Virus record (IMG/VR): IMGVR_UViG_3300023181_000025
Coordinates: 62,001-126,000 of that record
DNA length: 64,000 nt
Reading direction: 5' to 3' (one strand)
Source: a virus
Shown: positions 7,291 through 39,184 of the stretch, piece after piece
Layout: every line of letters begins with the position of its first letter
Position numbering within the stretch: position 1 is the stretch's first letter
The notes under the pieces: generated by a model
Database searches by the model: none
Told to the model about the DNA's origin: nothing
The model's input: only the letters and a program-made list of their open reading frames with translations
Program-made: the position numbers and the translations under genes

Positions 7291-7307
7291 TATTTACACT
7301 AAAAAAA
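7291..7307 (-). promoter_or_regulatory. AGTGTAAATA-type phage promoter motif
   Basis: Minus strand reads a T-run then AGTGTAAATA, 28 nt upstream of the gene starting at 7262. One of about a dozen occurrences of the same motif in promoter positions. Confidence 0.6.
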
Positions 7308-7369
7308 TCTCCCCATCAAAAGTTATAAATCTTTTACTTTCAAGAGTAATTTTTATAAGTAATTGATTA

Positions 7370-8440
7370 TTAAGCTAGATTTTCCAATATAATTTTTGCG
7401 GTATTTTCATAAGTCCAGCTTTTTAATTTCACGCCCTCATGATTATACTTACGTCCTGTTTTAGCGGCAACCAACATTGCATCAATCAAGTCAGAATCTT
7501 TGAAATCGTGCCATTCCCCTTGATTTATATCCTCTCCCTCAATGAAGAACCTATCATCAACAGCATCAACCATTCCATTTGGTTCTATTAAAATTGAATT
7601 GCTTGAATTGCAATAATCCTTGTGAGCGTGAGCGTTTAAAACAATTGCTTGTTTCCCGAGGCAGAGACTTTGGAAAAGTGGAAGATTAAACCCTTCGCCA
7701 CCGCTCATACCTGTTAACTCGATATCTGTATTATTCAATACTAAATTATATTCTGAATTAGTGCTAGAATATGGTAAAATATTGACATTCCAAGGGAGCC
7801 TTTTATCAGGGAGGGAATTAATAATCATGCTTGATTGCTCCTCATTAGACATGAATGCATTATGAATGGAGCAGTCAAGTCTGTATCTTGGATCGCCGCC
7901 GAAAACTTTTACCCAAGCCTTAATAACGCGGATCGTATTTTTTCTTTGTTCTAATTTTCCCTTTAGGCCGAAGGTGAGAACCTCTTTTTCGTCTTCACGC
8001 TTTTCTATCTCAAAAAAAGATTCACTATCAAATCCAAGCGGCGCGTATATTGATTGTATATTATGGTCAAGAAAAACTGATTGAGTGTATCTATTAGATA
8101 CGAAAACCTTATCTTGCTGAGATAAAATATTTTTTTCATAATTGGTAAGCCTATTAGTTTCATGATAAGTAAATAAGCTTGGATTTCTGCCAACTGAATC
8201 CTCCGAACCTCTTATATGAAAGTATTTTAATGTCGGATTATTTCTGTTATAATATTCCTTTGAATATCTTAAGCTATTTTTTATAATTTCTATATCAGAA
8301 TCCTTAAGTTCAAAACATTCCAAACCAATTCCATTTATTGGAAAAAGGCACACATCTGTCATTTTGGTTATTTCTTTAAAAATATTATAACCTGACTGCC
8401 CTATGCTTGTTAAATTAAAAGGTGCTTGAAAATTTATCAT
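7370..8440 (-). CDS. glycosyltransferase, GT4/GT-B type
   Basis: 356 residues. N-terminal SIGQSGYNIF is a Gly-rich acceptor-site loop. The mid-region LTFGLKGKLEQRKNT and the C-terminal GMSGGEGFNLPLFQSLCLGKQ match the GT-B nucleotide-sugar site, where the E in GGEGF is the ribose/phosphate-binding Glu of GT4 enzymes. It would transfer a sugar from a nucleotide donor; donor and acceptor are unknown. It lies in the same orientation as the gmd and nrd genes. Confidence 0.7.
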   Translation of the reverse strand: MINFQAPFNLTSIGQSGYNIFKEITKMTDVCLFPINGIGLECFELKDSDIEIIKNSLRYSKEYYNRNNPTLKYFHIRGSEDSVGRNPSLFTYHETNRLTNYEKNILSQQDKVFVSNRYTQSVFLDHNIQSIYAPLGFDSESFFEIEKREDEKEVLTFGLKGKLEQRKNTIRVIKAWVKVFGGDPRYRLDCSIHNAFMSNEEQSSMIINSLPDKRLPWNVNILPYSSTNSEYNLVLNNTDIELTGMSGGEGFNLPLFQSLCLGKQAIVLNAHAHKDYCNSSNSILIEPNGMVDAVDDRFFIEGEDINQGEWHDFKDSDLIDAMLVAAKTGRKYNHEGVKLKSWTYENTAKIILENLA

Positions 8441-8486
8441 ACTTATGGTCCGCCAAATTCAATTAAGAATTAGGACGGATTAATTT

Positions 8487-8873
8487 TTAGAAAAGAGGAT
8501 CTTCTTCGTCCTCTTCAACGGGGGATGGCTTGCTAGATTTAGCTTTTGGCTCAGAAGTTGCCTGTGATGACTTATCGCCCTTTGGCGGCAAGTCAATTCG
8601 GGAAACCTTGATATAAACCTTAGATTGCTTTTGTCCATCCTTTTCCCAAGTGTCTTGGACGAGTTCCCCCGTTACAATTGCAAAATCCCCTTTGGATGCA
8701 TATTTCTCAAGGACTTCCGCAGTTTTCTCCCAAGCCTCAACTTGAAAGAAGCTCGCTCCCGCATCTTTTCCGAACTTATCAACTGCGATAGAGCCTGTCG
8801 CCTTTTTCTTACCGCCCACATCAGAAACTTTAAAATCTTGAGACCATCTTCCTGTTAAATTTACTATGTTCAT
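8487..8873 (-). CDS. ssb: single-stranded DNA-binding protein
   Basis: 128 residues. The OB-fold opens MNIVNLTGRWSQDFKV and continues with FFQVEAWEKTAEVLEKYASKG and FAIVTGELV, the strand order of bacterial SSB. A low-complexity Ser/Pro/Lys linker follows (residues ~100-117). The acidic end EEDEEDPLF corresponds to the SSB tip that recruits replication proteins. It overlaps the upstream membrane-protein gene by 4 nt. Confidence 0.9.
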   Translation of the reverse strand: MNIVNLTGRWSQDFKVSDVGGKKKATGSIAVDKFGKDAGASFFQVEAWEKTAEVLEKYASKGDFAIVTGELVQDTWEKDGQKQSKVYIKVSRIDLPPKGDKSSQATSEPKAKSSKPSPVEEDEEDPLF

Positions 8874-9184
8874 TTTATTTTTTTATTAATACTATTCAAT
8901 AGAGAGTATACCGACTCAAAGAAATAAATCAAGCATAAAGTTGCGCAAATCCCAAAAAAGATTTCGATTGACCGACAAAACAATATATTAACCCAAAACA
9001 CGAAGCAGAATGCGCATTTCGTAGCAACATATATAAACGCCTTGGCAATTGGGTGACCCATTCTACTGCGAAGTATTAATTTAATTCCTTCTGTTTTGAT
9101 TATCGCTTCCCTGATCGGCCTGCCAATACTTGTGCGATTTAGTAGTATCCAGAGGAAATAGGGAAATAATAGTTCTGCGTTCAT
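8870..9184 (-). CDS. small membrane protein
   Basis: 104 residues with two to three hydrophobic helices (ELLFPYFLWILL near the N-terminus, CAFCFVFWVNILF and FFGICATLCLIYFFESVY centrally) and a basic tail SINKKIK. First gene of the leftward operon, coupled to ssb. Function unknown. Confidence 0.55.
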   Translation of the reverse strand: MNAELLFPYFLWILLNRTSIGRPIREAIIKTEGIKLILRSRMGHPIAKAFIYVATKCAFCFVFWVNILFCRSIEIFFGICATLCLIYFFESVYSLLNSINKKIK

Positions 9185-9191
9185 TTTTTTC

Positions 9192-9219
9192 TTGACAACT
9201 AAAAATCGTTCGTTATAAT
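9192..9219 (+). promoter_or_regulatory. perfect sigma70-type promoter
   Basis: TTGACA at 9192-9197, 16-nt spacer, TATAAT at 9214-9219, reading rightward into a gene-free stretch with three hairpins. No ORF follows until the promoter of the sigma-like gene, so it probably makes a small RNA. Confidence 0.75.
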
Positions 9220-9225
9220 ATACTC

Positions 9226-9385
9226 TTACTCGCTTCGCTCGTAATTTATAGGATTTAAATTTATAAATAAATATTAAATTAAAAGCGAAGCTTTTCAGAA
9301 CTAATCGAGCTTGCGAGGTTAGTTCTGTAATCTTAAAACGATATATTAGACCTTACCTCTCTTCGTTCGTTAAGGTCTTTTTCTA
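9226..9385 (+). ncRNA. candidate small RNA of three hairpins
   Basis: Downstream of a consensus promoter lie a perfect AAAAGC/GCTTTT hairpin (9281-9295), a 9-bp CAGAACTAA/TTAGTTCTG hairpin (9296-9327) and an AGACCTTA/TAAGGTCT hairpin followed by T5 (9348-9384), which looks like an intrinsic terminator. No ORF fits. This region separates the leftward and rightward gene blocks. Boundaries are inferred from promoter and terminator positions. Confidence 0.5.
9348..9384 (+). terminator. intrinsic terminator
   Basis: 8-bp stem AGACCTTA/TAAGGTCT with a pyrimidine-rich loop followed by a T-run, ending the predicted small transcript and insulating the next promoter. Confidence 0.6.
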
Positions 9386-9428
9386 TTATAAGCATGCCCT
9401 TTCGTTTTGTCAAGAAAATAATTTCAGA

Positions 9429-9457
9429 TTGACAATTCTCATTATTTTTGGTATCTT
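9429..9457 (+). promoter_or_regulatory. sigma70-like promoter, leaderless configuration
   Basis: TTGACA 9429-9434, 17-nt spacer, TATCTT 9452-9457, then 8 nt to ATG 9466. Confidence 0.7.
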
Positions 9458-9465
9458 AATACTTT

Positions 9466-9972
9466 ATGAACGAAACCGAAAAAACCTTACTGAAGCGTTA
9501 TCTAGAAACGGGGGTAATGGACGAGAGACTATTACTTATAAACAAAGGAATTCTTGACTTCATATACCAGAAGTATTTTCTTTCATTTTCTTTTATAAAA
9601 GACGATCTTATGCAAGAGGGCCTTCTTGGGCTTCTCGAAGCCTTTAATAGATTTGATGAAAGTCGCGAGGGAGGATTTTTTAATTATAAAAAGCTTTGGG
9701 TTAGAAAAAAGATGCAAGTTCTAGCTTATAAGCAAAGCAGGATTAATTCTTTCAGCGATCTAAAAATTTCAGAACCAATCTCATTTTGGGGAAGTTCTTG
9801 CTATAGATTAGAAAGAATTCAAAATGTTATTGACTTAGTTGAATCTTGCGATAAAATATCAATTCACGATAAAATTGAAATCGCCGAAGCCATAAAAGGT
9901 AATAGGCCCGGCTTCAAGAACAGCAAAACCTTTGCGAAGTTAAGAAAATTAGTAAGTTATGACAAAATTTAA
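9466..9972 (+). CDS. phage sigma70-region-2-like factor
   Basis: 168 residues. The segment DDLMQEGLLGLLEAFNRFD (~46-64) is the sigma-region 2.1-2.2 signature that contacts the RNA polymerase clamp. It continues with NYKKLWVRKKM at region 2.3-2.4, the -10 recognition helix. A canonical region 4 helix-turn-helix is not obvious, as in small phage sigma factors such as T4 gp55. I infer that it redirects host RNA polymerase to phage promoters, possibly the AGTGTAAATA motif. It is the first gene of the rightward block, with its own leaderless-type promoter. Confidence 0.7.
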   Translation: MNETEKTLLKRYLETGVMDERLLLINKGILDFIYQKYFLSFSFIKDDLMQEGLLGLLEAFNRFDESREGGFFNYKKLWVRKKMQVLAYKQSRINSFSDLKISEPISFWGSSCYRLERIQNVIDLVESCDKISIHDKIEIAEAIKGNRPGFKNSKTFAKLRKLVSYDKI

Positions 9973-9984
9973 ATCATATTGGAA

Positions 9985-10548
9985 ATGGGAACAAGAATAA
10001 TTGGAATTTCAGGAAATGCACGGAGCGGCAAAGATTCTTTGGCAATCTGTATACAAAAAGACCTTCAAAAAGATGGATTAACTTCACGGATTATTAGTTT
10101 AGCCGCGCCACTTAAAGAAGTGGTAAAACCCTTTGTTTACGAAAACTTTGGCATAGATCTTGACAACTGCACAGACAATGAGAAATTACTACTAAGGCCC
10201 TTAATGGTCGCATTTGGACAAGCAAAGAGAAATTTCACACAAGGCCGATATTTTATTGATATTTTAGACGAAAAGATTCGTAATTCGAATTATGATTTTA
10301 TTATAGTTCCAGATATAAGATTCGCGGACTTCGGGTTTGACGAGTTAGATTGGTTAATGCAGAAAAGTGGAGTTCTTTGGTATGTTGAAAAAACTTTGGA
10401 AAATGGAGAAATCTTAGGTCCGCCCAATGAGGACGAGGCAAGAAATAACCCAATTTTGAAATCTAACGCTCATTTTAAATTAGTATGGCCCGACAAATTA
10501 TCTGAGGAAGAAAGATTTAATTTTTATATATATGGGAAAGCTAAATAA
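9985..10548 (+). CDS. deoxynucleoside monophosphate kinase-like
   Basis: 187 residues from ATG 9985; TTG 9979 is an alternative. P-loop GNARSGKDS begins near residue 7, as in T4 gp1-type dNMP kinases. LRPLMVAFGQAKR and VPDIRFADFGFDE supply the lid and base-binding regions usual in that family. It phosphorylates dNMPs to dNDPs for phage DNA synthesis. Its 3' end overlaps the next gene by 17 nt. Confidence 0.75.
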   Translation: MGTRIIGISGNARSGKDSLAICIQKDLQKDGLTSRIISLAAPLKEVVKPFVYENFGIDLDNCTDNEKLLLRPLMVAFGQAKRNFTQGRYFIDILDEKIRNSNYDFIIVPDIRFADFGFDELDWLMQKSGVLWYVEKTLENGEILGPPNEDEARNNPILKSNAHFKLVWPDKLSEEERFNFYIYGKAK

Positions 10549-11068
10549 CACAAAATCATATTTGGTTGGGGCCATCCAGTATGAAAATGGACAGGCTTGG
10601 AGATCTGATTTTACAGACAAGCTTAATTCCATAGGGGTGAGGGTTTTGAACCCATATAATAATATATTTGTAAATAGCCCGGCTGAAGATATCACAGCCC
10701 ATGAGGATTTATATAAGTTGATGGATAGCGGTCAATTTGATAAGGTTCGTCAACATATGAAATTAATACGGAATTTGGATTTATCAGCCGTTGATAGAAG
10801 TGATTTCATTGTGGCTTATATTAATCCAAAAGTTCCCACAATAGGCTCCATAGAAGAGTTAACAGTAGCTTCAGCAATTAAGCGCGCCACCTTTATCATT
10901 ATTGAAGGTGGAATAAAAAAATGCCCCTTTTGGCTTCTTGCGATGTTTCCAACAAAGTATTTTTATAATTCATTTGGGGAAGCTTGGGAAACTATTTCAA
11001 AAATTGATTCGGGGGAAATAGAAATTGATTCCGATAGATGGAGATTATTGGTCGAGCACTTGAGATGA
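10532..11068 (+). CDS. nucleoside 2-deoxyribosyltransferase-like protein
   Basis: 178 residues with a Rossmann-like start YLVGAIQYENGQAW and the later SDFIVAYINPKVPTIGSIEEL. The latter is the D...N/G..EE pattern of nucleoside 2-deoxyribosyltransferase-like (NDT/PF15891-type) proteins, where the Glu acts as nucleophile. Might recycle or modify nucleosides, in line with the neighbouring dNMP kinase. Exact substrate unknown. Confidence 0.6.
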   Translation: MGKLNNTKSYLVGAIQYENGQAWRSDFTDKLNSIGVRVLNPYNNIFVNSPAEDITAHEDLYKLMDSGQFDKVRQHMKLIRNLDLSAVDRSDFIVAYINPKVPTIGSIEELTVASAIKRATFIIIEGGIKKCPFWLLAMFPTKYFYNSFGEAWETISKIDSGEIEIDSDRWRLLVEHLR

Positions 11069-11070
11069 CC

Positions 11071-11087
11071 AAAAAATAGTGTAAATA
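11071..11087 (+). promoter_or_regulatory. AGTGTAAATA-type phage promoter motif
   Basis: A-run then TAGTGTAAATA at 11071-11087, about 30 nt upstream of ATG 11117 in an intergenic gap. Confidence 0.6.
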
Positions 11088-11116
11088 ATAAAGCAAAACA
11101 TAACAAAATAAAATAT

Positions 11117-11575
11117 ATGAAAATTGAATTCACGCAGGACTTCGAAGTAAAAGTCCAAAAAGATGGGGAAGAAACTAAAGTAAAAACTTTTGAAGGGGAT
11201 AAAAAATATTCCATCGAAAGCTTCAGAAATGCCGGTAATATTGTCGAGATTTCTTTTAAAGATGGATCTAGGATAAATAGATTGGCCGCTGGTTTAGTTA
11301 AAAGCGTCGAGCAATCGAAAGCTGAAATCAAGGAAGATCAAGAGTCCCAAGAAGAGCTAGATAAAATTAACAAAGAAATCGCGGACAGGGAGTTTGCAGA
11401 AATTAAGCAAAGAGAAGAAGATGAGGCCCGTGCTGTTAAAGAGCAAGAAGATGCTCTTCTGGCAGAACAAGAGAGAGAGGAACTGGCAGCAAAAATTGCC
11501 GAAGAAAATGCCAAAGAAGAGGAAAAAGAAGCCAAAAAGACAAAGAAAAAGTCAGACAAAGTCGATAAAGACTAA
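11117..11575 (+). CDS. hypothetical protein with charged coiled coil
   Basis: 152 residues. Residues 1-70 form a beta-rich head (KIEFTQDFEVKVQKDGEET, ISFKDGSRINRL). The rest is an extremely charged Glu/Lys/Ala helix ending in a Lys-rich tail, probably coiled coil. Driven by its own AGTGTAAATA motif. No family recognised; a structural or scaffolding role is possible. Confidence 0.6.
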   Translation: MKIEFTQDFEVKVQKDGEETKVKTFEGDKKYSIESFRNAGNIVEISFKDGSRINRLAAGLVKSVEQSKAEIKEDQESQEELDKINKEIADREFAEIKQREEDEARAVKEQEDALLAEQEREELAAKIAEENAKEEEKEAKKTKKKSDKVDKD

Positions 11576-16939: not shown

Positions 16940-17048
16940 AGGGGCCAAAAGAAAAGCAGTGATCTTATCAGAACTTTGTGTTACAGCAAATGCTAATTTA
17001 GTTCGTGATATCATTGAAAAAATGTTGAAGAATAAGAAATTAGTGTAA
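16893..17048 (+). CDS. small winged-helix-like protein
   Basis: 51 residues starting MNIEDALKVLLTPDGKG. The KRKAVILSELCVTANANLVRD stretch has the helix-turn-helix rhythm of small DNA-binding proteins. It overlaps the preceding ORF in another frame, so only one of the two may be expressed. Its stop region overlaps the AGTGTAAATA motif of tRNA-His. Confidence 0.4.
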   Translation: MNIEDALKVLLTPDGKGAKRKAVILSELCVTANANLVRDIIEKMLKNKKLV

Positions 17049-17054
17049 ATATAT
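17040..17054 (+). promoter_or_regulatory. AGTGTAAATA-type promoter of tRNA-His
   Basis: TTAGTGTAAATATA ends 2 nt before the mature 5' end of tRNA-His, so here the motif cannot be a ribosome-binding element. Confidence 0.55.
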
Positions 17055-17736: not shown

Positions 17737-18412
17737 ATACTATACAGTAGGTGGGGCGATAAGGGACGAACTACTTGGAGTTAAAAGTAAAGATATTGAT
17801 TTTGCAGTAGAGGCTTCAAGCTATGAAGCGATGAGAGAGGATCTAATTTCCAAAGGTATTGAGATTTTTCAGGAGCGTCCCGATTTTTTTGCAATTAGAG
17901 GAAAGCATCCGAAATTGGGCGCGGTTGATTATACATTGTGTAGAAAAGAAGGATTTTATTCTGATGGACGTAGACCAGACAGTGTTACGATCTGTTCAAT
18001 TGAAGAAGAGCTTTCCAGAAGGGACTTTTCGATCAACTCGATGGCCAAAAATGAAGAAGGAATTTTAATTGACCCATTTGATGGGGCGCGGGATTTAGAA
18101 AATAATCTTTTGAGATGTGTTGGTAGTTCTTACGAAAGATTTTCCGAAGATTCCCTTCGATTAATTAGAGCTATTCGATTTTTCATAACCAGAGGGTTTC
18201 GCCTTCATGAGGACATATGTTATTGTTTGAGAGATGAATTTCTTTTGGAAAAAATTAAAAATATTTCAATTGAAAGAATCTATGAAGAGTTGACAAAGTG
18301 TTTCGCTTATGATAGCTTTGCGACACTTCAGTTTTTCAGAGAATATCGTAAGTTGGAAAAGGTTGTTTTTGAAGACATCGGATTAAAATTGACACCAAAA
18401 ATAATCAAGTAG
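17726..18412 (+). CDS. CCA tRNA nucleotidyltransferase (poly(A) polymerase family)
   Basis: 228 residues. The class II nucleotidyltransferase head is clear: VGGAIRDELLG (residues ~7-17), then DIDFAV with the two catalytic aspartates, and RRDFSINSMA, a conserved CCA-enzyme motif. It adds or repairs the 3' CCA of tRNAs. At 228 residues it is shorter than bacterial enzymes (about 400), lacking much of the C-terminal body. It is flanked by phage tRNA genes that do not encode CCA, giving an obvious purpose. It ends in TAG, which is rare here. Confidence 0.85.
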   Translation: MKIKYYTVGGAIRDELLGVKSKDIDFAVEASSYEAMREDLISKGIEIFQERPDFFAIRGKHPKLGAVDYTLCRKEGFYSDGRRPDSVTICSIEEELSRRDFSINSMAKNEEGILIDPFDGARDLENNLLRCVGSSYERFSEDSLRLIRAIRFFITRGFRLHEDICYCLRDEFLLEKIKNISIERIYEELTKCFAYDSFATLQFFREYRKLEKVVFEDIGLKLTPKIIK

Positions 18413-18417
18413 AATAT

Positions 18418-18489
18418 GCCTTCCTAGCTCAAGTTAGAGCAAGCCCCCGAGGGGGCATAAGGTTTGTGGTTCATGTCCACGGGGAGGCG
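18418..18489 (+). tRNA. tRNA-like gene, identity unresolved
   Basis: Acceptor GCCTTCC/GGGAGGC, D-stem GCTC/GAGC and T-arm TGTGG-TTCATGT-CCACG are good. The anticodon arm is a GC-rich GCCCCC/GGGGGC hairpin without U33, so the anticodon cannot be assigned. Possibly a degenerate tRNA. Confidence 0.5.
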
Positions 18490-18521
18490 CAGAAAATATA
18501 TAAAAATATTATTTTATATAT

Positions 18522-18592
18522 GCCTCAATAATTCAATGGTAGAATTCTAGCTTTGTAATCTAGGAACGAGGGTTCGATTCCCTCTTGAGGCT
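18522..18592 (+). tRNA. tRNA-Thr(TGT)
   Basis: Acceptor GCCTCAA/TTGAGGC. Anticodon loop TTTGTAA on a CTAG/CTAG stem. T-arm AGGG-TTCGATT-CCCT. No CCA. Confidence 0.8.
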
Positions 18593-18623
18593 CTTAACTC
18601 TTTAAATATCAACATATTACAAC

Positions 18624-18854
18624 ATGATTACATTTTTCCAATTAACATTTGCAGGAATTATTATAATGATGCTGTTTGATATTTTTTGGTTATCAGAATA
18701 TATTTTCAATAAGTCATTTCATAGAGTGGTTTACAATCGTATTTTAAAATTTAATGATAAAGGTTTCTTTGGCCGTTCCCATTCTATTGCATTGTGGACA
18801 TATATTTTGTGCCCGCCGATTTGGATCGCGGCATATTTATTAAATACATATTAA
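18624..18854 (+). CDS. small two-helix membrane protein
   Basis: 76 residues with two hydrophobic segments (FFQLTFAGIIIMMLFDIFWL and IALWTYILCPPIWIAAYLL) separated by a basic loop. Function unknown. Confidence 0.55.
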   Translation: MITFFQLTFAGIIIMMLFDIFWLSEYIFNKSFHRVVYNRILKFNDKGFFGRSHSIALWTYILCPPIWIAAYLLNTY

Positions 18855-18858
18855 GTTA

Positions 18859-19461
18859 ATGAAAAACATTGCCGTCATAATGACCATGGAAGGCTATAGC
18901 CTTGTCAATTCAGAAGTATTTACTGAAAATAATCCTAATACCCCTGTTTACTATTTGTATGGGGACGCATCCAAAGAAAAAGGCAAAAGAAATATTGATA
19001 GGCTCGTAAAGAAGTGGTGGGAATCCGAAGGTAAAGAATTAGATTTTGAATACGCCTTATTTATGGAATGGGATGTATTGTTTGATGAGAAAATTGAAAA
19101 TATATTTTCAGAAGATTCCGATTTTGAAGTAAAAACTTTAATACAGGATGGGAGTGGCTGGATTGGATTCCGAGACAGAAGAAAAATTTTATCAGAATTT
19201 AAAACTTTAGTAGGAGTTGGCCCGCTTTGTTTGTTTAGAATTAGCCGAAAATGCTTAGAAGTTATTTTTAATCGAAAAAATATTGATGCTTTGTATGCTA
19301 AAGATATGGCGGCGGGCCTTAGATTTGGTTCACTCATTAATAGTTTTAGTTTTCAAATAAAAGAATTGGATAATATTAAAGGTGTTGATTGGGGTGGCGA
19401 AAATAAAGTCGTAAAAGGCAAGGGTGTTTGGCACCCAGTAAAAAATGTAGATTTTAGTTGA
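18859..19461 (+). CDS. GT-A glycosyltransferase-like protein
   Basis: 200 residues. YALFMEWDVLFDE (~64-76) sits where GT-A enzymes carry the donor/metal acidic motif, and NIAVIMTMEGYSLVN is a Rossmann-like start. Similar in size and layout to the other GT-A-like genes at 14532 and 41300. Substrates unknown. Confidence 0.45.
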   Translation: MKNIAVIMTMEGYSLVNSEVFTENNPNTPVYYLYGDASKEKGKRNIDRLVKKWWESEGKELDFEYALFMEWDVLFDEKIENIFSEDSDFEVKTLIQDGSGWIGFRDRRKILSEFKTLVGVGPLCLFRISRKCLEVIFNRKNIDALYAKDMAAGLRFGSLINSFSFQIKELDNIKGVDWGGENKVVKGKGVWHPVKNVDFS

Positions 19462-19470
19462 CAATAATCT

Positions 19471-19485
19471 AAAAATAGTGTAAAT
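19471..19485 (+). promoter_or_regulatory. AGTGTAAAT-type promoter of tRNA-Met
   Basis: AAAAATAGTGTAAAT ends 5 nt before tRNA-Met. Confidence 0.55.
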
Positions 19486-19490
19486 TTCAT

Positions 19491-19564
19491 TGCGGGTTAG
19501 ACTGGAGGTGGTTCCAGCCAAGTTTCATAAGCTTAGGAGATCAGTTCGATTCTGATACCCGCAA
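19491..19564 (+). tRNA. tRNA-Met(CAT)
   Basis: Acceptor TGCGGGT/ACCCGCA, anticodon loop TTCATAA, T-arm TCAG-TTCGATT-CTGA. CAT may be elongator Met, initiator Met or lysidine-modified Ile2; the sequence does not decide. Confidence 0.75.
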
Positions 19565-19638
19565 CTCAAAAACAATTAAAAAGCTAATTGACTGTTAGTA
19601 AATGTATTGTTCTCTTTCGCTAGTCACTAAAGAGTTTC

Positions 19639-19854: not shown

Positions 19855-19932
19855 GCGGGAATAGCTCAATGTAGAGCGCGACTTGGTTTTAAAAATCCCG
19901 TCGAGGCAGCGGTTCAAACCCGTTTTCCCGCA
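19855..19932 (+). tRNA. tRNA, possibly Leu(TAA)
   Basis: Acceptor GCGGGAA/TTCCCGC and T-arm AGCGG-TTCAAAC-CCGTT are clear. The anticodon region contains TTTTAAA, but the stem pairs poorly and a CGAC/GTCG pairing with a 17-nt loop competes. Leu(TAA) is the best guess, not certain. Confidence 0.5.
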
Positions 19933-21080: not shown

Positions 21081-21083
21081 CAT

Positions 21084-21168
21084 GGAGTATTATGTAAACT
21101 GGTGTTTACGGTTGCTTGGAAAGCAACAGGCCGTTAGTTCGGCAAGGGTTCAATTCCTTAATGCTCCG
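21084..21168 (+). tRNA. tRNA-Ser(GGA)
   Basis: Acceptor GGAGTAT/ATGCTCC, anticodon stem GTTGC/GCAAC with loop TTGGAAA, variable arm GGCCG..CGGC-like, T-arm AAGGG-TTCAATT-CCTT. Three Ser tRNAs lie together here. Confidence 0.9.
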
Positions 21169-22118: not shown

Positions 22119-23007
22119 TATAGTTATTTTTTGTTTTTAGAAGTATTTTCAAACCCTTTCTTTCCCAATACCTTAAATAATTAGAAAGCGTGGAATTTTC
22201 AGGATAATTGCCAAATTTTGCCTTTATAAAAGATTTAACGTTTATTATATAATATAATTTGTTTTCATAGTTTACAACATACCTAGGTCCATATTTGCAT
22301 TTTAACTTTTTTATAGAATTTATTCTTTTTTGCTTTGATTCTTCAGTATGATTTCTGCCATAAAATGGATTATTTTTACCTTCATAAATCCCAAGCTTTT
22401 TTTCGCGCATTATTATTTTGTCTTTTTTTGTATGTTTATAGCCCTTTGCCGGAGGAGTCACTTCCCCGGATTTAATTTTTTCTACATATTTAATTAGACT
22501 TTGTCGGCTTTTTTCTTTTGATTCTGGAGTTATTTTAGATAAATTATTTATGCTGGTCGCTATAGCCTTTTTACTGTTTTCACCGGTGTAAAAAGCTTTG
22601 AGTTTAAGTGATATTTTTTCTTTTGTAGAGACGCTTCTATGCTTTTCGAATAACTTAAAATCAGTTGGATCATTAAGAATATTGAAACCAAAATCTGGGA
22701 AAGAAGATTGGTAGAAATCTATCCAAAATTTTTCCATTTTAAGTAGATTCTCATATGTATAATTTTTTGCCCATTCTAATATTTCGATTATAAATTCTTC
22801 ATGTCCGAATTTATTCCAATAGTTTTGAAGATGTGCGTTGCCATGTAACTTTTTATTTAGTTGCTGAATATGCTCTTTTAACCTCCTAGATACATTAACT
22901 GAACTTCCTATATAAATTTTACCCGTAGGTATATGAGTTATTGAATAAATAGCCTTTTCATTTTTGTTGTATAACCCATAGCTTTTTATTAATTCTGTAG
23001 CTGTCAT
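22069..23007 (-). CDS. GIY-YIG homing endonuclease
   Basis: 312 residues. IYSITHIPTGKIYIGSS (~20-36) is the GIY-YIG core, followed by SRRLKEH with the catalytic Arg and by EEFIIEILEW and MEKFWIDFYQ. The C-terminal part, with NPFYGRNHTEESK and related NUMOD3-type stretches, would bind DNA. The layout is that of T4 seg-type freestanding homing endonucleases. It sits between holin-like and endolysin genes, coupled to the former by ATGA. Confidence 0.9.
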   Translation of the reverse strand: MTATELIKSYGLYNKNEKAIYSITHIPTGKIYIGSSVNVSRRLKEHIQQLNKKLHGNAHLQNYWNKFGHEEFIIEILEWAKNYTYENLLKMEKFWIDFYQSSFPDFGFNILNDPTDFKLFEKHRSVSTKEKISLKLKAFYTGENSKKAIATSINNLSKITPESKEKSRQSLIKYVEKIKSGEVTPPAKGYKHTKKDKIIMREKKLGIYEGKNNPFYGRNHTEESKQKRINSIKKLKCKYGPRYVVNYENKLYYIINVKSFIKAKFGNYPENSTLSNYLRYWERKGLKILLKTKNNYSASKFKMENVGYFEIN

Positions 23008-23411
23008 TTAGAAGCAAGAATTATAATAGAAAAAAGAACTAAGAAAAAAGAAAGAGTCCACCTAGTCTTTTCTTTTACGGAAAATTCATCCCAGCCTATG
23101 TTCATCATTGAACCGAAAAATATTCCAATAGTTTTTGGAAACACCACCCTTTTAACAACCCAAACAAGCGCCGACGCCACGGCAACATGAAGAGAAAGAG
23201 AGGCAATATCCACAAGTGTATAAGCTTCAGCAAGCCCAAACGCACCGTCTACCCATTTCGCCAAGAGTAAAACAAGGTAGAAAAATACCACACTCCCACC
23301 GGCGACAGCTAAGTCTTTAACAACCCCGTTTTGTTTCCCCTTTGTTTCAACAGCTACTTCGATCTTTTTTTCGACCTTTGCTTCTTCTTTTTTTTCTTCT
23401 AGAGTTTCCAT
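23004..23411 (-). CDS. holin-like membrane protein
   Basis: 135 residues. A charged Glu/Lys N-terminus (1-30) is followed by three hydrophobic helices (SVVFFYLVLLLAKWV, LSLHVAVASALVWVV, TLSFFLVLFSIIILA). Being in one operon with the endolysin makes a holin the likely role. An AGTGTAAAT promoter lies 9 nt before the ATG. Confidence 0.6.
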   Translation of the reverse strand: METLEEKKEEAKVEKKIEVAVETKGKQNGVVKDLAVAGGSVVFFYLVLLLAKWVDGAFGLAEAYTLVDIASLSLHVAVASALVWVVKRVVFPKTIGIFFGSMMNIGWDEFSVKEKTRWTLSFFLVLFSIIILASK

Positions 23412-23420
23412 AGTAAATTT

Positions 23421-23433
23421 ATTTACACTAAAA
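23421..23433 (-). promoter_or_regulatory. AGTGTAAAT-type promoter of lysis operon
   Basis: Minus strand TTTTAGTGTAAAT, 9 nt before the holin-like ATG; back to back with the rightward sigma70-like promoter at 23437. Confidence 0.65.
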
Positions 23434-23849: not shown

Positions 23850-23865
23850 TTTTAGTGTAATATTA
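23850..23865 (+). promoter_or_regulatory. AGTGTAA-type promoter of tRNA-Val
   Basis: TTTTAGTGTAATATTA, about 10 nt before tRNA-Val. Confidence 0.55.
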
Positions 23866-24061: not shown

Positions 24062-26209
24062 TTACAAGCTTTCTAGAAAGCTCCCCACCATTGGTGAGTA
24101 AGATGCATAGCCAGCTACATTAGGGTGTAGCCCATCTGAAGCATAATAACTGGCAATATTATAAGGATTCCATCCACTTTTTCGGTTTAAGTCCAAAACA
24201 GGAATTGAATAAGTCGCACAAGTTTGAATTATGGCATCCACAAATTGGCGTAGTGTGGCTCCATTACCGTTTACTGCCGATACACCTGCTCCGCTTCCGC
24301 CTGTAGCTGCCGCAGAGCGAGGGAGAGGCGTAGTAAATGCGACCCTTACTGTTGGTTTTTCTGTTAAAATAGCCTCTATCAGTCCCCTAACATCTCCATA
24401 GAAGGTTCCGGGACCGTTGTAAACACCATAACTAGCTGCTGGGCTAGCGGCATCGCCAAATGCCCCCAATGGCCTATTAAATCCCCAATCGTTTGTGCCT
24501 AACGCAACTACAGCCAAGTCTACTCCGGCTGCACCGGCTGTTGTAGCTACAGATGTAGGTGCAGATGTGATTCCAACGGCTGTTCCGGTAGATATAGAAA
24601 TATTTAAAGAGGAATCATTTACTAGTGCCGTTGTTGATGTAAGGGTAACCGTATCGCCAGACCCACCCACCGTAAATCTTGAAGTTATAGATGAATTAGC
24701 GGCCAATGCTGCTCGAACTTGCGCCATCCAAACTGATGGAGATCCAGTAGAAACTGCCACTGATACTGTCACTGGGGAAACAGGGATTTGAGAGCTAGTC
24801 ACCACAACAGAAGCATTTCCTGCGCTTGATACCGTCCCAATTCCAGTTGCGGTTGTAACTTGTAAAGTTCCCGATAGCGAGCCGGGTGTAATTGCTCCAA
24901 TTTTATGTCCCATTGATGATCCAGAAGTTCCGCTATCTAAGATCATAGAGCCTTCAAGATATCTTGTGGCCGCTTCTTTCCAACCTTCGGCATCGGTTAT
25001 ACTATCACCAATAAAGCCAAGACCTTTACCTTTCCAACGCTTGTTTATTGCGCCGGTAACTCCGAAATTACTAAAGAATAAAGGAAGAGTAGATCCATTA
25101 TAGACCCCCAATCTTTCGGCAACACTATTTAATACAGTCATTCTTGCATAAGCGGCCAAAGATGGAACAGTATATGGGGTATTACCCAATATAGATCCAG
25201 CTTGAGAAGTAGCCAGCCTATTAAAATTTAAATCATAGTAGACAATGCCAAACCCTGCTCCCGCAGCAGTTCCTTCACTCAATATAATTTGCTCTCCCGG
25301 AATAACGGGCATATAATTTGAAATAGAAAAAGAAGAACCGGCTGCTATCGTTCCCCCAGTGCTTAAGGTGAACCCAGAGATTATTCCAAATTTATTAAAT
25401 ATATTAGAAAAACCTCCTATTTCTCTAATTGCCTTTATATTTTGATCTCGATCTGACTGACTATCTATTAATTTAAATGAGGGTATAATTGAGGGTAATG
25501 TAGAACCATCTCCCACATACCAGCCTCTTATATTAACTCCTGCCGTTCCAATAGTAGAGCGCATAAAAAACGCTCCCGCTGGAACTGAAATAGGAGTATT
25601 GGCTGCAAAAGCAGCTATAGAAGATATAAATACTTTATTTGAATCATAAAATGCAGTTCCGCGAGTGGCATCGCTGAAAAATGCTTTGTTTGATATTACA
25701 GTCCCTCCCGGAGTAACGGGGATATAATCCGTTGATTGATATCCTGCGATTGTTTCCGTTGTTCCATTAGATTGTCTTATAAGAGTATTTTGCAATACTC
25801 TTGTTTCATCAAATCGGTTTTTTCCGACTGGAAAGGAGCGATTATCTATATCGGCTGAGGCCGCGACGATCAATGACGAAGATACGCCAGACTGGAACAG
25901 CCAAGCGGTTCCATTATCAATTAAATATCCATTTGATGTGACCGTAACTGCTGCGTCTGGATCAGTAAGTGTTCCGGTAACAGTTATATAATACCATCTT
26001 CCAGAGGTTCCCGGAGCAGGAATAGCTTGCCCAAGCGCCGTTATTTGGCCTTGGTATTTATTTGGGTCTAACCCTGAAAGTGCAGCACTTTGAATTGAGG
26101 AGATCGACGCAACCAACTCATTAAAATTGCTATTTGCTTTAGAAAAAGAATTTCTAATTGTGTCTCCGGTTCCATCATTCGCGGAAGCTCCTATATTAAT
26201 TGTTTGCAT
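24062..26209 (-). CDS. tail/receptor-binding protein with SGNH hydrolase domain
   Basis: 715 residues. The N-terminus MQTINIGASANDGTGDT is typical of phage tail-fibre attachment regions. Two related beta modules follow (~128-235 and ~270-380: each has a Y-P-V-x-P-G-x segment, then YD, then NTP-x-x-VP). From GFIGDSITD (GDS, Ser403) there is an SGNH/GDSL hydrolase: GTNDWG supplies the Asn and DGLHPN (692-697) the Asp-His. It probably de-esterifies or deacetylates a host surface glycan during adsorption. Confidence 0.8.
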   Translation of the reverse strand: MQTINIGASANDGTGDTIRNSFSKANSNFNELVASISSIQSAALSGLDPNKYQGQITALGQAIPAPGTSGRWYYITVTGTLTDPDAAVTVTSNGYLIDNGTAWLFQSGVSSSLIVAASADIDNRSFPVGKNRFDETRVLQNTLIRQSNGTTETIAGYQSTDYIPVTPGGTVISNKAFFSDATRGTAFYDSNKVFISSIAAFAANTPISVPAGAFFMRSTIGTAGVNIRGWYVGDGSTLPSIIPSFKLIDSQSDRDQNIKAIREIGGFSNIFNKFGIISGFTLSTGGTIAAGSSFSISNYMPVIPGEQIILSEGTAAGAGFGIVYYDLNFNRLATSQAGSILGNTPYTVPSLAAYARMTVLNSVAERLGVYNGSTLPLFFSNFGVTGAINKRWKGKGLGFIGDSITDAEGWKEAATRYLEGSMILDSGTSGSSMGHKIGAITPGSLSGTLQVTTATGIGTVSSAGNASVVVTSSQIPVSPVTVSVAVSTGSPSVWMAQVRAALAANSSITSRFTVGGSGDTVTLTSTTALVNDSSLNISISTGTAVGITSAPTSVATTAGAAGVDLAVVALGTNDWGFNRPLGAFGDAASPAASYGVYNGPGTFYGDVRGLIEAILTEKPTVRVAFTTPLPRSAAATGGSGAGVSAVNGNGATLRQFVDAIIQTCATYSIPVLDLNRKSGWNPYNIASYYASDGLHPNVAGYASYSPMVGSFLESL

Positions 26210-26832: not shown

Positions 26833-26838
26833 ATCACT

Positions 26839-26850
26839 ATTTACACTTTT
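26839..26850 (-). promoter_or_regulatory. AGTGTAAATA-type promoter of tail operon
   Basis: Minus strand AAAGTGTAAATA with only GTGAT-type spacing (about 6 nt) before the start codon at 26832. Confidence 0.65.
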
Positions 26851-28437: not shown

Positions 28438-28875
28438 ATGATTAAGAAAATTTTAAATTATGTAAGTTTTGTGTTATTTTTCTGGAAATTTAATGATGGT
28501 TTATCGCCTTCATTTAAACAGATGGGGATGTTTTCAGATTGTCAGGCTTCTCGCGAGAAGGTAGATCGTGTTTATTCGCGAAATTCGGGAGCAACGACTT
28601 TTTTATCAACTTATTCTGCGTGGTTGGCTGGAAGAGGCTTCAAGGTTGGGTTCTTTACCTCTCCCTATGGGAAGATGAAGTATTTCTCTGGTGTCGCTAA
28701 TATTAAAAATATTAAATCAGCGGGAGCATATGTTTTCCATACGCGGAAAATGGACGAAAAGGCGAAAGGATTGTCATTAGACTATATTATTGTTGACAAT
28801 ACTGAGGTAGACATCCCACTTATTTTAACTCTTAATGGCGCGGGCAAGAAATTGATTCGTATTGATACAATTTAA
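28438..28875 (+). CDS. P-loop-NTPase-like protein with altered Walker A
   Basis: 145 residues. SRNSGATTFLSTYSAWLA has the helicase/terminase-type P-loop position but with A instead of Lys (GATT). LDYIIVDN (~115) fits Walker B. Likely an inactive or nucleotide-only-binding relative of such ATPases. Compare the intact MARGGGKS loop in the protein at 35683. Confidence 0.5.
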   Translation: MIKKILNYVSFVLFFWKFNDGLSPSFKQMGMFSDCQASREKVDRVYSRNSGATTFLSTYSAWLAGRGFKVGFFTSPYGKMKYFSGVANIKNIKSAGAYVFHTRKMDEKAKGLSLDYIIVDNTEVDIPLILTLNGAGKKLIRIDTI

Positions 28876-28884
28876 GTGTAATTA
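28871..28884 (+). promoter_or_regulatory. AGTGTAA-type promoter motif
   Basis: TTTAAGTGTAATTA, 8 nt before ATG 28893. Confidence 0.5.
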
Positions 28885-29060: not shown

Positions 29061-29114
29061 AAATGCGGAGATTTATTTCTTCCCAAATACAAAAAATTGT
29101 GTAATAATACAAAC

Positions 29115-29898: not shown

Positions 29899-29972
29899 GC
29901 GCCGTTAGCTCAGCGGTTAGAGCGGTCCGACTCTAAATTGGATTGTCGGGGTTTCGAATACCTCACGGCGCA
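29899..29972 (+). tRNA. amber suppressor tRNA(CTA)
   Basis: Canonical cloverleaf: perfect acceptor GCGCCGT/ACGGCGC, D-stem GCTC/GAGC with GCGGTTA-type loop, anticodon stem TCCGA/TTGGA, loop CTCTAAA with U33 and purine 37, T-arm GGGGT-TTCGAAT-ACCTC. The anticodon CTA reads UAG. The charged amino acid is not evident. TAG is rare as a stop codon among genes in this window. Confidence 0.85.
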
Positions 29973-29984
29973 CTTTTGACTTAA

Positions 29985-34291: not shown

Positions 34292-34302
34292 CTGGTAATT
34301 TT

Positions 34303-34570: not shown

Positions 34571-34572
34571 AA

Positions 34573-34645: not shown

Positions 34646-34646
34646 C

Positions 34647-34832: not shown

Positions 34833-34848
34833 CTTATAAAGAACATTA

Positions 34849-34922: not shown

Positions 34923-34933
34923 CTTTAAAACAT

Positions 34934-34951
34934 TTTTCTGAGTTCGAATCT
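34934..34951 (+). pseudogene. orphan T-arm remnant
   Basis: CTGAG-TTCGAAT-CTCAG hairpin followed by GTTGTCT, with no 5' tRNA half upstream. Looks like the 3' end of a lost tRNA. Confidence 0.45.
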
Positions 34952-34974
34952 CAGGTTGTCTATAGGAATAAAAA

Positions 34975-35681: not shown

Positions 35682-35682
35682 T

Positions 35683-36087
35683 ATGAACGAAAAAACTAAA
35701 CTATATTGCTTTCAAAAGGAAATAGTAGAACTAATAAATTCAAATAAAGACTCCCGAATTTTGGTTCTTATGGCTAGAGGCGGCGGGAAATCATTTTTAT
35801 TTGATTGGCTGACGCCAATAAAGGCAAGGAAGGAAAACGGCATTAGTCGATTTGCAAAATTCAACGGGACAACATTTATTGATGAAGTTGTTGATGAATA
35901 TTTACCTGAGAACCCGGTAGTTGTTTTTTCTTCTTATAGCGAATTATTGGATTATGGAGAATTTGATTTGATAATTAAGTTTGATATTAATAGGATATCA
36001 AGGGAATTATTTAACTTTTACGACAAAGATTTGGTAAAGTTTGTTCCCGAAGATGTTTATAGAAGAGATTTTTTGTGTAGAAAATAA
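35683..36087 (+). CDS. P-loop NTPase-like protein
   Basis: 134 residues. FQKEIVELIN resembles a helicase Q-motif region, LVLMARGGGKSFLFDWL (~27-43) is an intact Walker A, and DLIIKFDINR may be Walker B. Short for a helicase or terminase, so probably a truncated or single-core ATPase. Compare the degenerate relative at 28438. Confidence 0.55.
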   Translation: MNEKTKLYCFQKEIVELINSNKDSRILVLMARGGGKSFLFDWLTPIKARKENGISRFAKFNGTTFIDEVVDEYLPENPVVVFSSYSELLDYGEFDLIIKFDINRISRELFNFYDKDLVKFVPEDVYRRDFLCRK

Positions 36088-36194
36088 AATTTGATATCCA
36101 TTAGTAATAATGCCGAGCGGTGCGGAGGACGCTCTATTGCGTCGGAACCTGAAGAACAATAAACCGGCAAAATCTCAGGGGATATTTTTTAAAT
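36088..36194 (+). other. structured gene-free stretch, possible decayed tRNA
   Basis: GATATCC (36092-) and GGATATT (36179-) can pair, and GACGC/GCGTC plus CCTGA/TCAGG stems lie between, but no complete cloverleaf emerges. T6 after GGATA could terminate a transcript. Confidence 0.35.
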
Positions 36195-36268
36195 GTGGAA
36201 TAGCTTAGCCCGGTTAAAGCCCGCGACTGATAATTGCGAGATCGTTCGGTTCAAATCCGACTTCCACA
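36195..36268 (+). tRNA. tRNA-Ile(GAT)
   Basis: Acceptor GTGGAA/TTCCAC, D-stem GCTT/AAGC, anticodon stem CGCGA/TTGCG with loop CTGATAA, T-arm TCGG-TTCAAAT-CCGA. Confidence 0.85.
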
Positions 36269-36270
36269 AC

Positions 36271-36341
36271 TGCCCTTTAGTTTAATGGTAAAACTACACG
36301 TTTTGAGCGTGTCTTTCTCGGTTCGAGTCCGGGCGGGGCTT
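36271..36341 (+). tRNA. tRNA-Gln(TTG)
   Basis: Acceptor GCCCT/GGGGC core, perfect anticodon stem ACACG/CGTGT with loop TTTTGAG, T-arm CTCGG-TTCGAGT-CCGGG. Confidence 0.85.
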
Positions 36342-36718
36342 CATAAATAAATAACCCGAGCGAGGGCTGATATCCAAGATGCCGAATCTCTACCTGTGCC
36401 AACGGGTAAGTTCTAAATTCAGAATTTATTTATAGTTCTTCTCGTCTAAAGCTTAGGACGGCTCCCGCGTCAGGGGGTTATTGTGGCTCGCGCCCACAGA
36501 GGAACGCTTAATGGTGCGGCGCTGAAGGAAGCGCGACGAAGTTTGTAAGTCAGTCATGGAAAGGCGCGCTGGTCATTCAATAATAGAGTTGGGAAACCTT
36601 AATCGGTCTGAAGCCCGAACGCTCCACGTAGCCCATGCGGGGTCGTGTCTAAACCTCATCCGTCAGGATAAGTTACTGACCCCATAGCCGGTATCAAGCC
36701 CGGCCACCATTTATTTTT
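36342..36718 (+). ncRNA. GC-rich structured RNA block
   Basis: No ORF. Markedly richer in G and C than the rest of the window. Many complementary pairs: ACCCG/CGGGT (36357-36412), GCGC/GCGC around TGAAGGAA (~36520-36535), GGGGTC/GACCCC (~36640-36685) and a final GCCGG/CCGGC hairpin followed by CACCA and T-rich sequence. Includes the Asp-like tRNA above. It does not match tmRNA or RNase P RNA signatures by eye. Confidence 0.45.
36435..36505 (+). tRNA. tRNA-Asp(GTC)-like
   Basis: Acceptor GTTCTTC/GAGGAAC, D-stem GTC/GAC, T-stem TGTGG/CCACA with loop CTCGCGC. Anticodon stem TCCC/GGGG with loop GCGTCAG reads GTC but has C33. Confidence 0.5.
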
Positions 36719-36719
36719 C

Positions 36720-36748
36720 TTGACATTTAATGAGATTTTCTTTAACCT
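36720..36748 (+). promoter_or_regulatory. sigma70-like promoter, leaderless configuration
   Basis: TTGACA 36720-36725, 17-nt spacer, TAACCT 36743-36748, 7 nt to ATG 36756. Confidence 0.65.
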
Positions 36749-36755
36749 ACGTCTC

Positions 36756-37277
36756 ATGAAGAAGCCAAAAACATTAACTCCACCCCCGGTTGATACGCGG
36801 AAAGAATTGTTTGTTGAAACACAGTCTCGTTGTGAAAAAGATTATCATTCTGGAGAACAGTTTGGAAGCTGGGAGACAATATATGACTCTTTAGTAAAAA
36901 GAGTCTCCCGGAATTCTTCATTTTTAAACAAATGGTCTTTCGAGGCATTTAAGGTTCCGGACGAAGTCTATAATGCGCAAAGTGTATATGTGATTTATGT
37001 CATTTATAGTTCTGGAGATTCGTTTGGAAATTCTTCTGGGAATTTAGCGGTTGCATTTATTACAGAAATGCCCGACGAGGCTTTAGAATGTAAGAAAGCC
37101 CTTGAAGAACAAGGCTCTGACTGCAATTATGATTGCGAAACGAATCCTCGCCCTCTCCCGTGGGATAAAAACTTCCGTCATCATCCAAAAAGCGTGCGAT
37201 CAGGATTCGCCCCATGGTTTGGTTATTTCGAACACATTGAAAGTGTAGAAATTGGATTTTTCCCAATCATAGGATGA
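36756..37277 (+). CDS. hypothetical protein
   Basis: 173 residues from ATG 36756, which the promoter position supports. Pro-rich start (TLTPPPVDTRKE) and a central VYVIYVIYSSGDSFGNSSGN beta segment. Four cysteines. Overlaps the ATP-grasp-like gene by 4 nt. Unknown function. Confidence 0.55.
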   Translation: MKKPKTLTPPPVDTRKELFVETQSRCEKDYHSGEQFGSWETIYDSLVKRVSRNSSFLNKWSFEAFKVPDEVYNAQSVYVIYVIYSSGDSFGNSSGNLAVAFITEMPDEALECKKALEEQGSDCNYDCETNPRPLPWDKNFRHHPKSVRSGFAPWFGYFEHIESVEIGFFPIIG

Positions 37278-38173
37278 AAATAAACTATATTTTTCATAAA
37301 TTCCTAGGAGACCCCGTGGGATTTAATAGTTTAAATTCTAATGTTTTAGTCTACGAAGAATCGGAATTTTGCGATGAGAAAGATTTAGTTTTTGGCCCTA
37401 TTTTTCCTCGGGGATCAATCGCATTTATAAATAGTTTAAAATTTAGTTTGCGCGCCAAAGGTTGGCCGGACCTTATTTGGCCCTTCAATCAAAATGCGGC
37501 ATTATTTAATTACAGCAGTTGGAAGTGGTGGCATGAAGATTTACACAAGACTGTTTGGTTTGATGATATGCTGAATTTTGATGCCAAGTTTGAGATGCGT
37601 GTGGCCCAAGAATCAGATGGTGCAAAAGCAAAACCGATATGGGAGCCCGATACTTTTTCTTTTTTCAAGTTAGATTGGACTGACAAGATAAGGCCGAAGC
37701 ATTTGATTTCTAATTCTGGAGAAAATCTTAATTGGCCACTTTGGATAAGGTCAAATTCTGGAAATAAGTTATTTTCTGGTGGTGTATTTACCCGCGAAAG
37801 GTTTTTAAAGGAATATGAATATTTACTTCAAAATAATCTAACAGATATTGAATTAGTAATGGCTAAACCAAAATCAATTGGCCGGGAATGGAGATTAGTT
37901 TTCGTTGGTAATCAATATGTCACTGGATCTCAATATATGAATAAAGGAGTCATTGACTTGTCTACTGTCCCGCATGAAGTTTCAGAATGGGGTCATAATT
38001 GGGCCACAAAATGGGGTCATAATTGGGGAGGAAATTTTGTTCTTGACGTTTGCGAATCGCTGGGGTATAAAGTAGTTGAAATAAACTGTCTTTCTAGTTC
38101 TGGACTATATATGTGTGATATGCGGAAATTTATGACGGCCGTTAAAGAACAAATAGAAAAAGATATTTATTGA
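37274..38173 (+). CDS. ATP-grasp-like protein (DUF4343/R2K type)
   Basis: 299 residues. LWIRSNSGNKLFSGGVF, PKSIGREWRLVFVGNQYVTG and FVLDVCESLGYKVVEINCLS correspond to the phosphate-loop, adenine and metal-binding parts of ATP-grasp ligases of the R2K/DUF4343 group; the Asp in LDVCE and Glu/Asn in VEINC would bind Mg. Contains a short tandem WGHNW repeat (~235-246). Such ligases form amide bonds; substrate unknown. Confidence 0.6.
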   Translation: MKINYIFHKFLGDPVGFNSLNSNVLVYEESEFCDEKDLVFGPIFPRGSIAFINSLKFSLRAKGWPDLIWPFNQNAALFNYSSWKWWHEDLHKTVWFDDMLNFDAKFEMRVAQESDGAKAKPIWEPDTFSFFKLDWTDKIRPKHLISNSGENLNWPLWIRSNSGNKLFSGGVFTRERFLKEYEYLLQNNLTDIELVMAKPKSIGREWRLVFVGNQYVTGSQYMNKGVIDLSTVPHEVSEWGHNWATKWGHNWGGNFVLDVCESLGYKVVEINCLSSSGLYMCDMRKFMTAVKEQIEKDIY

Positions 38174-39162
38174 TCTTTAAAAATCTCTGTTTTTGGGAAT
38201 ATTCTTTTATTAAGCTTTGCTTTTATTGCTATAAATTTTTGATATTTCCTAAGAAGACCTAAACTGTCTTTTTCATAATTTGAATAAATGTAGTCACCAA
38301 ATTTAGACACCCTTGATTTTCCTGAAATTATAATTTTACTATAGCTCCCTCTTTCGGAAAAAACTCTTTTTATTTTCCAGTTTATTTTTAAATTTCTTAA
38401 CAGATTTTCAAAGCATCCCCAGTCTTGATTGTAAGACGAGCAAATTGAAAATGTATAGTTAGATGTTTTTTCGTTTATATAAAAACAACCATCTCCATCT
38501 ATAACGCCCAAAATAAAAGCTCGTTTAAAATTATCTGGAACAGCATTGTATATTTTATCTGCACCCAACTCTTTATTGCAATAATTCATTTCTTCTAAAA
38601 AAGATTTGAAATATAAATTATTCGTATATAAGGAAGTTCGGGCTTTCCCCTTTTCAGGAAATGAAACAGAAGAACCCCAATTTCCAGTTTTCTGAAAAAC
38701 AGGAACAAAATATTTGTCATCTGGAGAAGTAGTAATAAAATAAATTGAATTTTTAGTTTTCGATACGTGCCCATCGCTCCATAACAAACCTAATATATAT
38801 GCATGTATTTCTGAATTTATATTTTTAAATTGTTCATGACAAACCTTATAATTTATTTCGTTCTTAATATGGCATGATGATGAAATTGCAGATTTGGTTT
38901 CGGCAGTAATTTTAAGTTTTAATTTCGAGGCGATAAAATTTACTTGATTTTTTGTAATATTATATTTATCTACGCACCAATTGACACCGTATAAAGGGTA
39001 ATTAATCTTTATCTGATCTTGAATAATACCCGGTATTTCCTTCCTTTTTGGTTTACAATTTAAACAAAACTTTCGGCTTGATAAGCAAATATTTTTTCCG
39101 CTTTCAACAAAATTTACATCGAAACCTAAATTGCATTTTTTACAAATAATTTGTTTTTTCAT
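38167..39162 (-). CDS. LAGLIDADG-type homing endonuclease
   Basis: 331 residues. Two LAGLIDADG helices: YILGLLWSDGH (~122-132) and FILGVIDGDGCF (~222-233), each ending in the catalytic acidic residue. An N-terminal CxxC...CxxC zinc ribbon (IICKKCN, FCLNCK) precedes. It lies opposite to its neighbours, with its own phage-type promoter, and overlaps the ATP-grasp gene end by 7 nt, as expected for an inserted freestanding homing gene. Confidence 0.85.
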   Translation of the reverse strand: MKKQIICKKCNLGFDVNFVESGKNICLSSRKFCLNCKPKRKEIPGIIQDQIKINYPLYGVNWCVDKYNITKNQVNFIASKLKLKITAETKSAISSSCHIKNEINYKVCHEQFKNINSEIHAYILGLLWSDGHVSKTKNSIYFITTSPDDKYFVPVFQKTGNWGSSVSFPEKGKARTSLYTNNLYFKSFLEEMNYCNKELGADKIYNAVPDNFKRAFILGVIDGDGCFYINEKTSNYTFSICSSYNQDWGCFENLLRNLKINWKIKRVFSERGSYSKIIISGKSRVSKFGDYIYSNYEKDSLGLLRKYQKFIAIKAKLNKRIFPKTEIFKDQ

Positions 39163-39170
39163 ATGGAATT

Positions 39171-39184
39171 GTTACACTAAAAAA
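39171..39184 (-). promoter_or_regulatory. AGTGTAA-type promoter of homing gene
   Basis: Minus strand TTTTTTAGTGTAAC, 8 nt before ATG 39162. Confidence 0.6.

Follow-up and report, generated by a model that had tools for sequence, protein, structure and literature searches.

A GTGTA promoter class predicted in a family of uncultured phages, with a candidate sigma-like factor

A short motif that recurs in the DNA of an uncultivated tailed phage is, in all likelihood, the core of a phage-specific, -10-type promoter class, most likely read by the host RNA polymerase together with a 229-aa phage protein and predicted to start transcription commonly at the ATG. Overall, we are probably dealing with a sigma factor of the phage and a promoter class dedicated to it; the comparison with T4 late promoters in the original prediction was right, and the factor that it named was probably wrong.

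The window, i.e., the whole 64,000-nt stretch analyzed, runs from base 62001 to base 126000 of a virus record 211,168 bases long (hereafter, the contig). Its gene content (tape measure, terminase, tail fiber, ribonucleotide reductase, and DnaE-type DNA polymerase) is that of a tailed phage, for which no close relative was found among isolates; the nearest relatives of the DNA polymerase are uncultivated contigs with at most 59% identity. In the closest relative (L087:10001-13464), the DNA polymerase match is ~900 bases longer than the query, which suggests an insert such as an intein.

The motif sites of the window all lie within 7 bases of the positions originally predicted and, as was claimed, are directed at the start of an ORF or at a tRNA (window coordinates; distances are counted from GTGTA):

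7291-7300, minus strand: motif AGTGTAAATA, 37 nt before the ATG of ORF 6939-7262(-); the ribonucleotide reductase gene lies downstream
11078-11087, plus strand: motif AGTGTAAATA, 38 nt before the ATG of ORF 11117-11575
17042-17051, plus strand: motif AGTGTAAATA, with the G of GTGTA exactly 14 nt before the 5′ end of tRNA-His (17057)
19477-19486, plus strand: motif AGTGTAAATT, 13 nt before tRNA-Met (19491)
23420-23429, minus strand: motif AGTGTAAATA, 17 nt before the ATG of ORF 23004-23411(-)
23854-23863, plus strand: motif AGTGTAATAT, 20 nt before tRNA-Val (23875)
26838-26847, minus strand: motif AGTGTAAATA, exactly 14 nt ahead of ATG 26832, where a leaderless start is predicted; the tail-fiber-like gene 24062-26209(-) lies downstream
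28875-28884, plus strand: motif AGTGTAATTA, 17 nt before ATG 28893 (55-aa ORF)
29098-29107, plus strand: variant TGTGTAATAA, 16 nt before an ATG whose frame has only 22 codons
30175-30184, plus strand: motif AGTGTAAATA, 22 nt before ATG 30198 (54-aa ORF); a nearer ATG is upstream of the predicted +1
39169-39178, minus strand: motif AGTGTAACAA, 15 nt before the ATG of ORF 38167-39162(-)
62495-62504, minus strand: variant TGTGTAATAT, exactly 14 nt before the GTG start 62489 of ORF 62250-62489(-)

Exact AGTGTAAWTA occurs seven times in the window (7291-, 11078+, 17042+, 23420-, 26838-, 28875+, and 30175+), versus 0.39 ± 0.58 expected from 100 dinucleotide shuffles, which reached a maximum of 2 and in no case 7, and 12 times in the whole 211-kb contig, where the same pattern reversed is absent. 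When k-mers from the contig's non-coding DNA were searched without supervision, TAGTGTAAATA likewise came first once tRNA sequences were set aside. Recurrence beyond shuffled sequence, as originally claimed, is thereby borne out; the essential unit, however, is not the whole of AGTGTAAATA but its core, GTGTA. The sites at 19477+, 23854+, and 39169-39178(-) differ from AGTGTAAWTA only in the 3′ half, which varies among relatives, where GTGTA alone is fixed, and the variants predicted at 29097+ and 62496- both fit the family consensus (GTGTA 16 and 14 nt before the start). In the literature, AGTGTAAATA appears only in unrelated texts, as does the combination of GTGTA, phage, and promoter. An intergenic AGTGTAAGTA at 47359-47368(-), whose GTGTA stands exactly 14 nt ahead of an ATG with only a very short frame behind it, may belong to a small RNA or be due to chance.

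In the window's own contig, GTGTA occupies positions -20 to -14 in just 8 of 276 starts, which speaks against the promoter reading, and counting single 5-mers in this contig does not decide the matter. A 490-aa gene that directly follows a motif site (contig 18159-19631) has 65 IMG/VR relatives at 32-43% amino acid identity, and in most of them TAGTGTA or a similar sequence occupies the corresponding position ahead of the ATG. Among 1,297 distinct gene starts of related phages with ~35% protein identity, drawn from loci carrying either this gene or the sigma-like gene described below, GTGTA ranks first of all 1,024 5-mers at -20 to -14 (215 starts, versus 10 in a background window and 9 for the reversed ATGTG). 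Its single-base variants are at background, with the exception of GTATA (31 versus 2.8), such that position 3 alone tolerates change; the whole 10-mer is only weakly conserved because GTGTA alone is fixed. In two unrelated control phages, GTGTA precedes 0 of 151 starts. The original prediction of A/T-rich upstream DNA and no -35 box agrees with the 146 aligned sites of relatives, whose base composition reveals A/T-rich DNA downstream and no conserved -35 element. Genes behind the motif include portal-like, tape-measure, and neighboring structural-region genes. In none of the clades examined was the core clearly altered, a change that would have allowed sigma/motif co-variation to be followed and cause to be told from descent. 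Judged from these sequences, many uncultured phages of one big family share both the motif and one unusual sigma-like protein. A different sequence, TTAGGTATA, is enriched at -20 to -14 upstream in L136-L219 (11-16 versus 0) and occurs at most once per locus; TTAGGTATA/AGGTAT probably represents the leader of a single homologous gene.

Distances between GTGTA and the ATG have a hard edge: 45 of the 1,297 starts have the motif at -15, 73 at -14, 1 at -13, and 1 at -12. Such an edge is expected with +1 at a distance of 14 nt from the G, since a closer motif would begin the message past the ATG. At the -14 sites, 84 of 85 genes have C or T directly before the ATG, versus 50% of genes without the motif; a pyrimidine at -1 and A at +1 is the usual start-site pattern. 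Shine-Dalgarno-like sequences accompany 0.6% of starts with the motif at -14 to -16, 28% of those with a far motif, and 18% of those without one. The edge, the -1 pyrimidine, and the loss of Shine-Dalgarno sequences together place the predicted +1 on the A of the ATG. For near sites, this strongly predicts leaderless mRNAs, and far sites would give leaders with ribosome sites; the motif itself is almost certainly a promoter element.

A further promoter class, overlooked in the original prediction along with the putative leaderless starts, consists of TTGACA-N17-TAnnnT. In five contigs, we found 87 cases with TTGACA ~35 nt before the ATG, TAnnnT at -12 to -7, and a pyrimidine at -1, with window examples at 57892, 39204, 53377, 36720, 9429, 23437, and elsewhere. 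By their sequence, these are ordinary sigma-70-type promoters with a predicted +1 on or next to the ATG, and the genes behind them look leaderless too. In the terminase/structural region, GTGTA outnumbers TTGACA by 151 to 12, versus 34 to 65 over whole contigs (Fisher p 4e-24), a comparison showing that the two classes serve different gene regions. Calling the GTGTA class "late" is a label resting on the genes served, and just a label, because non-structural genes and tRNAs have the motif in front of them as well.

Pfam searching of the contig gave two matches to sigma region 2, one in the window (the 9466 product) and one outside it:

9466-9972, plus strand: small sigma-like protein with sigma region 2 only; the factor originally proposed
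9429-9465, plus strand: host-type promoter of the 9466 gene (TTGACA 9429-9434, 17-nt spacer, TATCTT 9452-9457, predicted +1 at or near the ATG)
contig 10854-11543, plus strand: 229-aa sigma-like protein, just upstream of the terminase gene

In the 229-aa protein, the region 2 match (Pfam Sigma70_r2 E 2e-4, 21.5 bits) is below the cut-off of 24, with an E of 1.2e-5 in the genome search. A region-2-like part is followed by a conserved Cys4 segment (C84, C87, C96, and C108) and a C-terminal, region-4-like helical part. An AF2 model built on 54 homologs (pLDDT 81.6, pTM 0.44) predicts a sigma-like fold comprising a region 2 and a region 4 domain; in a Foldseek comparison with the PDB, sigma factors dominate the top matches, with probabilities up to 1.0 and only one E below 0.001, individual values being modest, probably owing to a flexible arrangement of the two domains. 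The presence of a region-4-like domain in the model would sit oddly with promoters that have no -35 element. The neighboring terminase large subunit gene (L009:13560-16298, outside the window) is split by an intein that contains a LAGLIDADG-like domain.

The gene for the 229-aa protein is found in 27 of 38 relatives, mostly fragments, exactly once in each of eight large records searched, and in at least 485 IMG/VR stretches, and its product matches none of the 50,697 phage records in INPHARED. When records were collected by the motif alone (TTAGTGTAATATA N4 ATG), 24 of 50 encoded the protein. With a control spacing of 2 instead of 4 bases before the ATG, 10 of 39 did (six sharing a near-identical site), and the motif-to-sigma test therefore backs co-occurrence more than exact spacing. 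One 134-kb record (G035), possibly incomplete, has the motif and no sigma hit. That the 229-aa protein reads GTGTA is what we infer from co-occurrence and fold, although common descent alone could yield the same co-occurrence. The idea that the motif controls the sigma gene itself was considered and rejected, as just 13 of 84 relatives have a plausible site within 900 nt upstream of the gene. In GTDB, four contigs that carry the sigma gene are assigned to bins labeled Flavobacteriales, Flavobacteriaceae, Halobacteriovorax, and uncultured bacterium, labels that may be binning accidents.

Several other readings of the motif have to be weighed against a promoter served by this protein. The sharp spacing to the ATG could be taken to mean that the motif acts in translation or RNA processing close to the start codon and is no promoter, but the motif also stands before the tRNA-His (G at -14), tRNA-Met (-13), and tRNA-Val (-20) of the window and, in a relative found via the motif alone, before a full-length tmRNA at a distance of 16 nt (L308:2182-2623; Rfam E 5e-54), which upholds the original argument that it is no translation signal. 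Together with the start-site pattern and Shine-Dalgarno loss that suit leaderless starts, and the SD-like sequences that accompany more distant sites, this makes such a signal hardly credible. (Other tRNA features of the window include a tRNA with anticodon CTA at 29899-29973, called tRNA-Pyl by ARAGORN and a possible amber suppressor, TAG being the rarest stop codon in the contig, in 18 of 324 predicted genes; a selenocysteine tRNA match at 21083-21168, with 52 bits in Rfam versus a cut-off of 47 and no ARAGORN call; and a further tRNA at 19855-19932, likewise absent from the ARAGORN calls.) The originally proposed reader, the 9466 product, has in its favor a gene inside the window and a match to sigma region 2 (phrog_351 E 7e-8; Pfam 1e-4). 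Against it, a single, weak homolog was detected in 1 of 38 relatives even though the motif is conserved in those examined, a separate IMG/VR search confirmed no relatives, its own promoter is of the host type, and it is the 229-aa protein that is conserved alongside the motif. We therefore regard the 9466 product as an improbable, and the 229-aa protein as the better, candidate for the factor; the former could serve another promoter class or modulate the host polymerase.

A host housekeeping or alternative sigma factor might also read the motif as an extended -10 with no phage factor involved, given that the motif's register overlaps the -10 box and that A is tolerated at position 3 (GTATA). 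Yet host-type promoters look different in the same phages, which have clear TTGACA/TAnnnT promoters elsewhere, and the invariant GTGTA core and its partition by gene region point to another specificity; this reading is unlikely, if slightly less so than the 9466 product. Nor does a phage-encoded RNA polymerase of the kind found in phiKZ/AR9-type giant phages seem plausible: the genome is large, and -35-less late promoters are known from that phage type too (PMC5312081), but eight records contained no RpoB- or RpoC-type domain in searches whose controls were positive in all 14 genomes, and no T7-type polymerase was found in a search run without a positive control. Because the eight records have no multisubunit RNA polymerase, the host polymerase is the likely enzyme, and we give a phage polymerase very little weight, only marginally more than a translation signal.

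The account that we prefer, a host polymerase redirected by the 229-aa protein, would run as follows. Early genes would first be expressed from ordinary TTGACA/TAnnnT promoters; the sigma-like protein would then be made and join the host RNA polymerase; and GTGTA, as a -10-type element at -14 to -10 from the predicted +1, followed by A/T-rich DNA and lacking a -35 box, would turn on structural and other genes as well as several tRNAs. In both classes, transcription would commonly start on the A of the start codon, yielding leaderless mRNAs. Actual transcription, recognition by the 229-aa protein, use of the host polymerase, and timing are all things we infer. In its fullest form, i.e., a large, uncultivated lineage with a dedicated, undescribed Cys4 sigma factor, a -35-less GTGTA promoter, leaderless messages as a main mode, and tRNA and tmRNA starts at +1 or a few bases from it, the picture is one that we favor with some reserve.

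If correct, these analyses provide a base-level map of predicted start sites for a widespread phage group without a match in INPHARED and name a candidate protein for the group's transcription. They make the translation of leaderless phage mRNAs, and host support for it, directly testable; the GTGTA motif is also usable as a metagenome marker for these phages. A second -10-only promoter system would be added beside that of T4, with a factor that looks unrelated.

The T4 late promoter lacks a -35 element and has A/T-rich downstream DNA (PMC2988020), and the GTGTA class resembles it in its single -10-type element, sites on both strands, and lack of a -35 (PMC2988020). With +1 at the ATG, TGTAAATA of this contig falls at -13 to -6, the same register as the T4 TATA box. 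Sequence analysis thus supports the originally claimed phage-specific, -35-less, T4-late-like promoter in its lack of a -35, A/T-richness, and register; the likeness does not extend to the T4 late consensus TATAAATA at -13 to -6, from which TGTAAATA departs with G for A at -12, nor to a gp55 homolog, as a profile of 54 sigma-like homologs aligned with T4 gp55 at an hhalign probability of 0.1%; the 9466 product compared with gp55 gave an E of 0.32. Also unlike T4, the GTGTA class has an invariant G at -14, with relatives fixing only GT(G/a)TA, and predicted leaderless starts, and its candidate factor differs from gp55 in having a Cys4 segment and a region-4-like domain. With ECF and other small sigma-70-family factors, including phage-encoded ones, the candidate shares region-2-like and region-4-like helical domains; it differs in scoring below curated cut-offs, in the Cys4 between the domains, and in its promoters without a -35. 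The late promoters of AR9 and phiKZ are similar in that a short, phage-specific motif has the start near the element, but they are read by phage multisubunit RNA polymerases, none of which was found in the eight records here, and AR9 5′ UTRs are long (PMC5312081), whereas near GTGTA sites are predicted to be leaderless.
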